From an uncultured Acidobacteriia bacterium (lineage in GTDB: Bacteria > Acidobacteriota > Terriglobia > Bryobacterales > Bryobacteraceae), in assembly GCA_903900705.1 (NCBI GenBank), contig CAIUOG010000033.1:1-64000 (forward strand): a DNA stretch of 64,000 nt, written 5' to 3'. Each line of letters begins with the position of its first letter. Within the stretch, counting starts at the first letter, position 1. Made by a program: the position numbers and the translations under genes. Under the pieces are notes generated by a model. It did not search any database. It had not been told where the DNA came from and worked only from the letters and a program-made list of their open reading frames with translations. Of the stretch, positions 7,536 to 56,880 are shown piece by piece.

Positions 7536-10500
7536 TTATGCCTCCGGTCTGACGAAGAGCAGGCTTTGACCTGCGGCCACCTGTGCGCCCTGGGCGCAGA
7601 GAACTTCCACGACAACGCCGGCATGCGGAGTGGCCACCGCGATTTCCATTTTCATGGACTCGACGACGACCAGGCGCTGCCCGGCTTCCACACGATCCCC
7701 GGCTTTCACGGCGAGGTGCCAGACGCTGGCGTGCGCGGGGGACTTGAGGGCCCGGCAGCCAGGCGGGACGGGCGCTTCGGCGACGGGCGCGGCGTCCTCC
7801 GCCACCTCGATTTCGCGATCAAGATTGGCGGCGCGCCAGCGATCGCGTTCGGCTTCGAAGGCGGCCTGCTGGTTTTGTTTGAAGGCGTGGGTTTCGCCGC
7901 GGATGCCATCGAGAAAAGCATGGTAGTCGCGCAGATTGAACTGCTGCTCCTGAATATCGAGTTCGAAGCGACCGTGCGGGAAGCGATCCCGCATATCGAG
8001 GAGCTCTTCGGCGCTGACGGGGTAGAAGCGAATCTGGTCAAAGAAGCGCAGGAGCCAGGGGTGGCCGGGGGTGAACTCTTTGGTGGTCCGGTAGGTGTTC
8101 CACATCTGAACGGTGCGACCGACGAACTGGTAGCCGCCAGGACCTTCCATGCCATAGACACAGAGGTATGCACCCCCGATGCCGACGGAGTTTTCCGCAG
8201 TCCAGGTGCGGGCCGGGTTGTATTTCGTGGTGACCAGGCGATGCCGCGGATCGAGCGGGGTGGCGACCGGCGCGCCAAGGTAGACGTCGCCCAGGCCGAG
8301 GACCAGGTAGCTTGCGCCGAAAACGATTTTGTAGACGTCTTCAATGGATTCGAGGCCGTTGATGCGGCGGATGAATTCGATATTGCTGGGGCACCAGGGA
8401 GCGTCCGGCCGGACGGAGCGCATGTATTTTTCGATAGCGAGGCGGGTGGCCGGGTCATCCCAGGACAGCGGGAGGTTGACGATACGCGTGGGGATGACAA
8501 GGCCGTCGAGATCAGGCAGGGCGGCCTCGGCGCGGTCGAGAAGCGTGAGCAATTCAGCGCGGCTCAGGCTGCCGGAATCGTAGTGAACCTGGAGGGAACG
8601 GATGCCGGGGGTGAGATCGATAATCCCGTTGGGCTGCTCGCGTTCGAACCAGGCGAGGAGTTCCTGGACACGGAAGCGGAGGTTGAGATCGAGAACGGGT
8701 TCGCCGTATTCGATGAGCAGGTAGCGGTCGCCGGAGGCGCGGCAGACCATGCCGGGAGCGACGCCTTTGACGATTGCCTCTTCCTGGTTGAGGCGGATGA
8801 AGCGGATGGAGTCGCCGGGGCGCAGCTGGCCCATCTTCCAGAGTTCGTCATGCGCGATGACGGCGGGGCAGACGAAGCCGCCGAGGCTGGGGCCATCGGG
8901 ACCGAGGATGACGGGCATGTCACCAGTGAAGTCGATTGCGCCGATGGCGTAGGCGTTGTCGTGGATGTTGGAAGGGTGCAGGCCAGCTTCGCCACCGTCG
9001 CGGCGGGCCCACTGTGGTTTGGGGCCGATGAGTCGGACGCCGGTGCGACTGGAGTTGTAGTGGACCTTCCACGAAGTGCTGAAGAAGGTCCGGATGTCTT
9101 CGGGAGTGAAGAATTCGGGCGCGCCGTGAGGCCCGTAGATGACGCCGATTTCCCAGTGATTGGTGAATTCCGGGATGGAGACGGAGGGCACGGGCTTGCC
9201 GGCGCGATTGCCGAGATGGAGAATGTCACCGGTGCGGAGAGCGCGGCCGGCGTGCCCGCCGAAGCGACCGAGAGTGAAGGTACTGGCGCTGCCGAGATAG
9301 ACGGGGATGTCAAGCCCGCCCTCGAAGAGAATATAGGCGCGCGCGCCGGGGCCTTCGGTTTGCAGGAGTTCGAGAACGGAGCCTGGGTGAACGGGAACAG
9401 GCGTCCAGCGGGGAATCGGTTTGCCATCGAGCGAGGCCTGATAATCAGCGCCTGTGACCGCGATGACGGTCTGGCAGTTGAACCGGAGGGTGGGTCCGGT
9501 GACGGTGATTTCAAGGCCGGGAGCGCCTGCTTCATTGCCTAACAACTGGTTGCCGAGGCGGAAGGAGAGCGCGTCCATGGGGCCGGAGGGCGGGACACCG
9601 ACGTTCCAGTAGCCGAGTCGCGCGGGGTGATCCTGCACGGTGGTCATGGTGCCGCCATCAAGGATTTCGAGCGAGCGGGCGTAGTAGTGGAACGTGTTCA
9701 GGAAGCTGGTGGTGACGCCCCCGCCGGCGAATGCAGGGCTGGCGGCGACCTGGGCGAGGTAGTTCAGGTTGGTTTCAATGCCGGCGAAGCGGGTTTCGCC
9801 GAGTGCGGCGGAGAGCCTGGCGATGGCCGTGGGGCGGTCGTCCGCGCGGACGATGATTTTGGCTAAGAGAGGGTCGTAAAAAGGCGTGACTTCAGTGCCG
9901 CGTTCGACCCAGGTTTCGATGCGGGCGGCAGGGGAGAAGTCGGCCTGGGTGAGCAGGCCGGAACTGGGCTGAAAGTTTTTGCCGGGGTCTTCGGCATAGA
10001 CGCGAACCTGAATCGAAGCGCCTTGATTGGCGGGTTTGGCGGGCAGGGGCTCGCCGGCGGCGATGCGGACCATCCATTCGACAAGGTCCGTACCGGTGAC
10101 TTCTTCGGTGACACCGTGTTCGACCTGAAGGCGGGTGTTGACTTCGAGGAAATAGAAGCGCGCGGCATCGGCATCGTAAACGAATTCGACGGTACCGGCG
10201 GAGCGATAGTTCACGGCCTGGCCGAGGCGAACGGCGCAGGCGAGCAGTTCGGCCCGGAGCTCTTCGGTGAGGCCGGGGGCGGGCGTTTCCTCGATCACCT
10301 TCTGGTTACGGCGCTGCACGGAGCAATCGCGTTCGCCGAGTTCGATAACATGACCGCGACCATCGCCAAAGAGCTGAACTTCGATGTGGCGGGCACGGGA
10401 CACGAACTTTTCCAGATAAATTCCACCATCTTTGAAACTGGCGCGACTGGTGCGTTCCACCGAGGCCCACGCTTCCGCCACTTCATGCAGTTCGCGGCAT

Positions 10501-11006
10501 AAGCGCATGCCGATGCCACCACCGCCCGCGGTGCTTTTCAGCATGACCGGGAGGCCGATGCGCTCCGCTTCGCGCAAAGCTTCTTCGGCGCCTGAGAGCA
10601 GACCGGTGCCAGGCAGAAGAGGTCCGCCGTTGGCTGCGGCCAGGGCGCGGGCGGTGTGCTTGAGGCCGAAATCGCGCATCTGGGACGGGGTGGGCCCGAT
10701 GAAGGCGATACCGGCGGCTTCGCAGGCTTCGGCAAACTCCGCATTCTCGCTGAGGAAGCCATAGCCGGGGTGGATGGCTTCCGCACCGGTGGCTTTGGCT
10801 GCTTCGAGAACCTTGGATATGTCGAGGTAGCTTTGGGTGGCGGGCGCGGGGCCCAGCAGGACGGCTTCTTTGGCCTGCAGGACATGCAGGGAATGGCGGT
10901 CGGCTTCGGAATAGACGGCCACCGAGGCGATGCCCATGCGATCCAGCGTGCGGATCACACGACAGGCAATTGCGCCCCGGTTGGCGATGAGAACCTTTTT
11001 AAACAT
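7536..11006 (-). CDS. Urea carboxylase family biotin enzyme (possibly guanidine carboxylase)
   Basis: Biotin carboxylase N-terminus ([25 protein letters not shown]), KipI/KipA-type carboxyltransferase domains, C-terminal biotinyl motif [11 protein letters not shown]. Confidence 0.93.
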
Positions 11007-55079: not shown

Positions 55080-55130
55080 AAAAAAAGCGTCGCCTCACGC
55101 AGCTGGAGTCTCAACTGCGCGAGGCGACGC
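55080..55130 (-). terminator. Strong rho-independent terminator ending the small peptide/methyltransferase operon
   Basis: Near-perfect 16-bp stem (GCGTCGCCTC-a-CGCAG ... CTGCG-c-GAGGCGACGC) followed on the minus strand by seven Ts. Confidence 0.85.
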
Positions 55131-55157
55131 AGGAATCCCTGATCGATTTGAGGGGCG

Positions 55158-55451
55158 TTAGTGCAGTCCGCCGCCGTCAAAGGCATTGCAGAGTTCGCGC
55201 AGACTTTGCAACTCGCGTTCGTCGGGATTCCAGCGGTAGGCGTGCGTCTCGCAATGAAAAACGGGCGAGCGGGTATCCAGTAACTCGCGCAGTTCCGCCA
55301 CAGTCCATTGCTGCCCCAGCAGATGACGTCCGTCCGGACAGACCACGTCCCGGACAATCAGACGTTCGGCGCGGTAGCCCTCAGCGCCCGGCGCGGGAGC
55401 GCCAAAACAGGTCTTAAAACAATCCAGACACTTTTCCACCAGAATGGTCAT
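55158..55451 (-). CDS. Small uncharacterised Cys-containing protein (97 aa)
   Basis: MTILVEKCLDCFKTCFGAPAPG...; GAGGAGAG Shine-Dalgarno-like sequence upstream; lies between methyltransferase and terminator. Confidence 0.6.
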   Translation of the reverse strand: MTILVEKCLDCFKTCFGAPAPGAEGYRAERLIVRDVVCPDGRHLLGQQWTVAELRELLDTRSPVFHCETHAYRWNPDERELQSLRELCNAFDGGGLH

Positions 55452-55495
55452 ACTGCTCTCTCCTCTTTGGAGGATGAAGCAATTCGCCTGCCGTT

Positions 55496-56755
55496 TTACC
55501 GCCTGACAGCACTGCCCCAGGGAAGCACACGCCAGGGAATGGCCTGTGCGCTGTTTTCAATGGCGGAATTCAGGGGGCCGACATCAGCGAATTCGTCCCC
55601 GACTGGCAGGATGATACGGGCGGCGGCAAGTACGAGGGCGTTCGCCAGAAGGTCGCGCGGGTCTGTTTCCGGAGTGAGCAGGTGGGACAGAATCCGGGGA
55701 CCGCCGTCGAGCGCGGCAACAATGCTCCGGGCGGATGGATTGTCGAAACGCAGCTTGCCGGCGGGAGTCTGAACGACGTATTCCACGTTCCGGGAGTCTT
55801 TGGCGAGAGCGTAGCAGCGTGACAGCAGCGCCTCGCGGCGGCGGTCCGAATCGGCGGTCTGGCCATCGCGAATATAGACATCCTGGCGAAAGAACTGATC
55901 GAGAAAGAAATCGCGGGCAAACTCACGGGCATCCTGATCTTCGATGCCGGCGAGAACGTCGCGGGCCGCTTTCCGCAGGACGAAGGAATCGTAATTCTGC
56001 AGCAGGTTGGCCGTTCCCGCGGAGGCAAGCCCGATGGAGCGCATATCGGCCCGCACTTCGGTGACGCAGAGGGGATCCCAACTGCCACCCATCAGTTCGT
56101 GCGCCAGATAGGCCGGGGGGAGTTCCGGACGACTCATCAGAGCAGCCGCCATAGGGCTGGCGGTGAGGGCTGGCGCTTTGAGTTCCGTCATCGCGCGCGC
56201 GACTCGGAGGGCGGCGAGAGCCCGGGTCTGGCTGTCACCCGGCAGGCTGTTTCCAATGGCGCGAACGAGGCGCTGCAGCGGCAGGTCCGCGGCGCGCCCG
56301 GGCATGGCGTTGTAGCTGACAAAGACCAAACCACCGGGCTTGAGATGGCGATTTACGAAGCGCAGCCACGACTGGCGGACGGGCGGACTGACCCAGGAGT
56401 AGACGCCGTGGGAGACGATGTAGTCAAAAGAGGGGAGGTTGAGGTTGCAGGCGGAGTCGAAATCAGCGCAGTGCAGGGTCAGATTCTGAAGACCGGCATC
56501 ATCCCGAAGTCGACCTGCCGCTGCTATGTGGGCAGGAAGGATGTCTATGCCGTAAAATTTGCCGCGCGGATGAGTCGCGGCCAGCGCAATCGGCGTCAAG
56601 GCGAGGCCACAGCCAAGATCGCACCAGTTGAAGGTATCACTTCGATCCGGCGGAACAAAACCCGAAACCAGCGCCGCGTGGTCCAGCCACGCGGGCGCCA
56701 GTTCCGCGATATAGCTCCAGACGTAGGGGACGTCAGAGACGTAGCCGTCTGTCAA
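55496..56755 (-). CDS. Class I SAM-dependent methyltransferase with C-terminal regulatory-like domain
   Basis: WCDLGCGLALTPIALAATHPRGKFYGIDILPAHIAAA, FDYIVSHGVYSWV, KPGGLVFVSYNAMPG; TTG start overlaps upstream TGA. Confidence 0.88.
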   Translation of the reverse strand: MTDGYVSDVPYVWSYIAELAPAWLDHAALVSGFVPPDRSDTFNWCDLGCGLALTPIALAATHPRGKFYGIDILPAHIAAAGRLRDDAGLQNLTLHCADFDSACNLNLPSFDYIVSHGVYSWVSPPVRQSWLRFVNRHLKPGGLVFVSYNAMPGRAADLPLQRLVRAIGNSLPGDSQTRALAALRVARAMTELKAPALTASPMAAALMSRPELPPAYLAHELMGGSWDPLCVTEVRADMRSIGLASAGTANLLQNYDSFVLRKAARDVLAGIEDQDAREFARDFFLDQFFRQDVYIRDGQTADSDRRREALLSRCYALAKDSRNVEYVVQTPAGKLRFDNPSARSIVAALDGGPRILSHLLTPETDPRDLLANALVLAAARIILPVGDEFADVGPLNSAIENSAQAIPWRVLPWGSAVRR

Positions 56756-56880
56756 ATCTTCAGCTTCAGGAAGCCGCCGGCCACACGTTCCGTGTCTTCT
56801 TCCGTCAGCTCAATGCTCTGCGGCTCGACCGGCTGGGTGAGTTCGTCGGCATTCGGCGCAGGCTTGGTGGGTTCAGTCAT
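56752..56880 (-). CDS. 42-aa double-glycine-leader peptide (RiPP/NHLP-like precursor candidate)
   Basis: Manual translation MTEPTKPAPNADELTQPVEPQSIELTEEDTERVAGGFLKLKI*; ELxxExxxxVAGG leader; TTGA overlap with methyltransferase start; AAGGA upstream of ATG; below the ORF-track cutoff. Confidence 0.72.
   Translation of the reverse strand: MTEPTKPAPNADELTQPVEPQSIELTEEDTERVAGGFLKLKI

Follow-up and report, generated by a model that had tools for sequence, protein, structure and literature searches.

NHLM-exported double-glycine peptides and PKMT-like methyltransferases are both already known kinds. For the LahT C39 protease, the last 13 residues of the leader suffice for recognition, and Leu-12, Leu-7, and Val/Ile/Leu-4 are important (PMC6363468). 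Known PKMTs, including Rickettsia PKMT1/PKMT2 and Acinetobacter KmtA, combine a SAM domain with a PF10119 region and have outer-membrane proteins as their substrates (PMC11784438). According to the accessible part of a review (PMC11285071), lysine side chains are N-methylated in fungal RiPPs, the epichloecyclins (GigC), which are cyclic, and no bacterial RiPP is named there whose Lys side chains are methylated by a dedicated enzyme.

Here we describe a locus on the minus strand of the window (the whole stretch of DNA analyzed, 64,000 nucleotides), where a 42-aa double-glycine peptide, a PKMT-like methyltransferase, a 97-aa Cys protein, and a terminator follow one another. All four lie where a preliminary description had placed them, and the coding peptide that it proposed, with a double-glycine leader, a very short core, and coupling to a methyltransferase, is real; the pairing recurs in a second species. 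The unit had also been regarded as self-contained; instead, the genome encodes a complete NHLM peptidase-exporter on another contig, and at least eight short peptides, this one included, are scattered through it. The best reading, to which we assign a probability of roughly 0.55, is that the peptide is methylated on lysine, cleaved after Gly-Gly, and secreted in trans by the NHLM exporter. A literature search, with most subscription journals outside its scope, returned no description of NHLP-exported methyl-lysine peptides, nor of such short peptides for this lineage.

Results

The Leader Resembles C39 Substrates

The peptide (56752..56880, minus strand; MTEPTKPAPNADELTQPVEPQSIELTEEDTERVAGG followed by FLKLKI) has an acidic 36-aa leader, ending in the recognition segment ELTEEDTERVAGG, and a 6-aa predicted core. 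As in the C39 (AMS/PCAT) substrates of LahT and ComA (PMC6363468), L(−12), an acidic residue at −8, V(−4), G(−2), and G(−1) are present, which fits the C39 substrate motif (GG/GA/GS at −2/−1, V/L/I at −4, Leu at −12). The window peptide differs from these substrates in having Thr for the Leu at −7 that is important in LahT, an exporter encoded in trans, and a minimal core. Position −7 is Thr, Ala, or Leu among members of the genus. C39 substrates mostly have Leu at this position. When the leaders of L113, L115, L045, L044, L117, L145, and L147 are compared, the family's other genera have Leu there too, but many peptides of the genus carry Thr or Ala. In all peptides of the window genome, the leader closes with the pattern E/V-L-x-x-x-[DE]-x-x-x-[VI]-x-G-[GA]. 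A 21-row alignment shows this end conserved and the cores unrelated, the arrangement expected of ribosomal precursors of RiPPs.

The NHLP/NHLM system (Haft et al. 2010, PMC2887384) provides a second comparison. The same exporter family is present in the window genome, and the last ~13 residues of the window leader match NHLP-like precursors (TIGR03793) in the related genomes G259, G155, and G013, which end in a similar segment, e.g. ELSDVELEAVAGG; those of G259 and G155 lie beside exporters, and only the G013 precursor passes the TIGR03793 cut-off. In contrast to NHLPs, the window peptide, with its 36-aa leader and 6-aa core, has no nitrile-hydratase-like leader domain and no adjacent exporter. 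Scanning the peptide against Pfam gave no family, and NCBIfam gave two sub-threshold matches: TIGR03793, the nitrile-hydratase-alpha-like leader (E = 0.018, 14.9 bits versus a cut-off of 50.9, profile positions 55–77 only), and NF038167, the CTB family bacteriocins, to which the GG segment matches weakly (12.8 bits, under the cut-off of 32). Judged by sequence, the short peptides resemble NHLPs of which just the C39-recognition end is left.

An NHLM Exporter Is Encoded on Another Contig

The single C39 peptidase gene of the window genome lies on contig C37, within a complete NHLM cassette that comprises a cNMP-binding protein and matches to TIGR03794 (298.6 bits), TIGR03796 (1033.6 bits), and TIGR03797 (807.2 bits), these three over cut-off. 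The C39 catalytic residues of this exporter are conserved, and the window peptide thus has an NHLM exporter encoded in its own genome. Since the two are on different contigs, their cognacy rests on co-occurrence and motif. At E ≤ 0.02, peptides are found in 13/257 genomes of the order, and 10 of these belong to the 17 genomes whose exporter is full-length or split (Fisher p = 1.8e-11; 5.9e-7 when the genomes supplying model rows are left out; both values overstate independence because the genomes are related). A few genomes (G148, G224) have peptides but no detected exporter. Leader-HMM matches in G009:C141 (a longer protein) and in G113, G143, and G150 (within large frames) were set aside as doubtful or false. 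On this circumstantial basis, it is likely that the window peptide is processed by the exporter in trans.

The predicted core of only about six residues (FLKLKI), already remarked on in the preliminary description, is not anomalous, because peptides adjacent to exporters have equally short cores of 5–7 residues (GG followed by FYVLL in G001 and by RLDPYKN in G009). The exporter in G001:C36 is itself flanked by long ORFs (L117:496-1644 and 8957-10534) built from repeated units like ELKPDEADEVAGAG...NHNQ, so that GG/GA leader-core repeats recur many times within them along with a conserved NHNQ motif; such ORFs also occur in G009 (L116:8493-8804).

Other loci of the window genome encode seven or more additional short peptides of the double-glycine kind (C60, C64 with three, C15, C46, and C140). 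On C64, three tandem, overlapping or closely spaced peptides precede a RimK-type ATP-grasp gene that the last of them overlaps (L113:8763-10102, G000:C64), making this locus a candidate graspetide-like or peptide-tailing unit; the three have MSEERI... leaders and short Glu/Lys-rich cores, with the RimK-family ligase directly behind. On C46, a cytochrome P450 gene is followed 56 nt on by a peptide ending in AGA and then DLYMQNLRGSNGR (L143:5169-6526, G000:C46), and on C15 a peptide lies 455 nt after a FeeM-type N-acyltransferase gene (L115:7036-8231, G000:C15). Known RiPP acyltransferases are GNAT-like; a lipopeptide from the C15 locus is conceivable. This adjacency of other own-genome peptides to enzymes of modifying type (RimK ATP-grasp, P450, FeeM-like) is suggestive. 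A loose DNA pattern, E-x-V-x-GG, was uninformative in the same genome (277 matches versus ~210 for a reversed-pattern control). In three genera, double-glycine peptides adjoin a ~350-aa Cys-containing protein family (L145:4387-5433, L147:9180-10277, L228:10783-11853), for which NCBIfam gave no match in 3/3 members and Pfam none in the two scanned.

The Methyltransferase Is PKMT-Like and Recurs with a Peptide in G009

The 419-aa SAM methyltransferase (55496..56755, minus strand) was placed by Pfam, PDB sequence matches, and fold search. Homologous methyltransferases can be aligned with it from residue 4 onward (invariant G4, Y5, and D8), which makes the TTG start credible. It has the class I motif DLGCG and the PF10119 regulatory domain (68.6 bits versus a cut-off of 25.5), and thus both the SAM-binding domain and the PF10119 region of PKMTs. 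The nearest PDB sequences, matching over residues 8–161, are 5doo (Rickettsia PKMT2, 2e-20) and 5dnk (PKMT1, 1.3e-15). PKMT1/2 are again the best solved relatives by predicted fold (5dnk_B, E = 8e-20, ~409 columns, TM 0.5–0.6), using a model of modest confidence (pLDDT 65). The enzyme is therefore a SAM methyltransferase, as originally described, and more precisely one that groups with the PF10119 outer-membrane protein-lysine methyltransferases. It is shorter than the PKMTs (419 aa versus 535–554), with a reduced C-terminal part, and is coupled to a tiny exported-type peptide, whereas the outer-membrane PKMTs act on a large adhesin.

Among the order's 257 genomes, the sole close homologue (57% identical) is in G009, a member of the same genus, where a double-glycine peptide (MSEETKLPSK...IELVDAETERVTGA followed by GNHVETWTWTDGG) ends 15 nt upstream of the methyltransferase. 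On the same contig, 3 kb downstream, a second G009 peptide (MKEETKPTPKAEDLAEPTVSETIELVEEDTERIAGG followed by LKSKLSD) is a 58%-identical match to the window peptide, and a K-x-K pattern is common to the cores LKSKLSD and FLKLKI. Within the order, the methyltransferase is thus linked to a double-glycine peptide in 2/2 genomes that have it, these being two genomes only. The preliminary description had suggested looking for a peptide upstream of homologous methyltransferases: the G009 ortholog keeps one, but none was found at the five distant homologues checked (30%–38% identity). Distant homologues (Azospirillum, a Caulobacteraceae MAG, and G316) have glycan or TPR contexts, beside glycosyltransferases or TPR proteins, and a phylum-wide search gave one distant homologue only, that of G316, with no double-glycine peptide upstream. 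With no peptide and other contexts in distant homologues, the pairing appears to be a local recruitment and not a family trait.

Because the enzyme is PKMT-like, the two lysines of FLKLKI are natural candidate targets. The coupled G009 core GNHVETWTWTDGG has no Lys, however, so lysine is not a universal target, and this core is an argument against an enzyme that strictly requires lysine or acts in cis. It is reasonably probable that the methyltransferase modifies the window peptide, while lysine as the methylated residue is a more tentative assignment. A methyl-Lys in the window peptide would be of the modification type known from the epichloecyclins (PMC11285071), which differ in being fungal and cyclic.

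Alternatively, the peptide may be exported unmodified through the trans NHLM exporter, pheromone- or bacteriocin-like, with the methyltransferase made from its transcript but acting elsewhere, e.g. on a surface protein or glycan. The outer-membrane substrates of known PKMTs (PMC11784438) and the glycosyltransferase or TPR neighborhoods of the distant homologues are consistent with this, as are the peptide loci with no evident enzyme (C60, with the core LIALLHPEH, and C140) and the uncoupled position of the second G009 peptide. We consider it rather unlikely in view of the 4-nt overlap of the two genes in the window genome, the 15-nt gap in G009, and the occurrence of the methyltransferase gene within the order only with such a peptide.

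The Cys Protein as a Probable Passenger

The last gene of the putative transcript encodes the 97-aa Cys protein (55158..55451, minus strand), with GAGGAGAG upstream, and is followed by an intrinsic terminator (55087..55130, minus strand; 19-bp stem plus T7 tail; fold −44.5 kcal/mol, z = −6.4), so that the stem-loop and T7 run reported earlier are indeed present, at 55130-55087. The common strand, this terminator, and the protein's own ribosome-binding site would suit a three-gene pathway with the Cys protein as a partner, e.g. a metal-binding carrier or immunity factor. Such a role is improbable: G009 has no homologue, and the protein resembles, distantly (29%–36% identity), a widespread ~65-aa protein of the order, with no double-glycine peptide beside it at any of the 11 match loci examined. 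We therefore rejected the Cys protein as a conserved partner and, contrary to its earlier inclusion in a self-contained unit, regard it from these comparisons as probably a passenger or bystander. The ~65-aa protein (L183-L193) has the pattern VCPNNHNQTVxFS..EF..L..VFHCNTCDxxWxPSSEE.

The Peptide Is Coding

The genes for the peptide and methyltransferase overlap by 4 nt as TTGA (56752..56755, minus strand; peptide TGA 56754-56752, methyltransferase TTG 56755-56753), which had been noted before and is seen in the sequence; the overlap may translationally couple the two. Together with the scant sign that the TTG codon has a ribosome-binding site of its own, it could also indicate that the 42-aa ORF is an unexported, cis-acting leader peptide that solely regulates translation of the methyltransferase. 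This is highly improbable, since the same leader occurs in peptides with no methyltransferase behind them, in exporter-adjacent peptides, and as the terminal part of the leader in true NHLPs, and its conservation is at the protein level. Between the window peptide and the G009 peptide, 24/39 base differences in the 36 leader codons are at third positions, which implies selection on the amino-acid sequence of the leader. Most members of the leader family are preceded by good ribosome-binding sites; AGAAAGGA lies 5′ of the ATG of the window ORF.

A leader HMM built without the window peptide and the two G009 peptides gave the 42-aa peptide 24.3 bits (E = 1e-6 in a search of the window's 726 ORFs), compared with a maximum of 4.7 bits in ten shuffled windows. 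The peptide is confirmed as real and coding, beyond chance. Its length of just 42 codons might speak for a chance frame that happens to contain GG, but the homologues in other genomes, the third-position bias, and a score far beyond the shuffles make this very unlikely.

Discussion

We propose that the 42-aa ORF encodes a short double-glycine precursor that would be processed by a C39 protease. The PKMT-like methyltransferase made from the same transcript would modify it, most likely by N-epsilon-methylation of one or both core lysines. The methylated peptide would then pass to the single NHLM exporter on contig C37, whose C39 domain would cut after Gly-Gly, and the exporter complex would secrete the resulting hexapeptide in methylated form, which may serve as a signal or an antimicrobial. 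Export is well supported, if circumstantially, and methylation of the window peptide is plausible. Computation establishes that the peptide is coding and belongs to the leader family, that the exporter exists and co-occurs with such peptides across genomes, and to which family the methyltransferase belongs; the steps of modification, processing, and secretion, the lysine target, and the role are inferred.

More broadly, and more tentatively, the genome may possess a dispersed system, in which a single NHLM exporter handles numerous mini-precursors that are not linked to it and have cores of 5–16 residues, each with its own tailoring enzyme (PKMT-type methyltransferase, RimK ATP-grasp, P450, or FeeM-like acyltransferase) or none, and in which a lysine methyltransferase of the outer-membrane type has been recruited to make N-epsilon-methyl-lysine hexapeptides. 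Such hexapeptides, if real, would constitute a new bacterial RiPP class.

Genome-mining tools seek clusters and exporter-proximal precursors, whereas the precursors here are tiny, most of them have no linkage to the exporter, and taken singly their loci appear unremarkable. The window peptide probably belongs to a dispersed group of mini-peptides that are secreted, perhaps in methylated form, and missed by standard annotation. If so, one exporter would mark a set of overlooked secreted mini-peptides with differing tailoring enzymes, and a methyltransferase family known to modify surface proteins would acquire a peptide substrate that is small and easy to assay.
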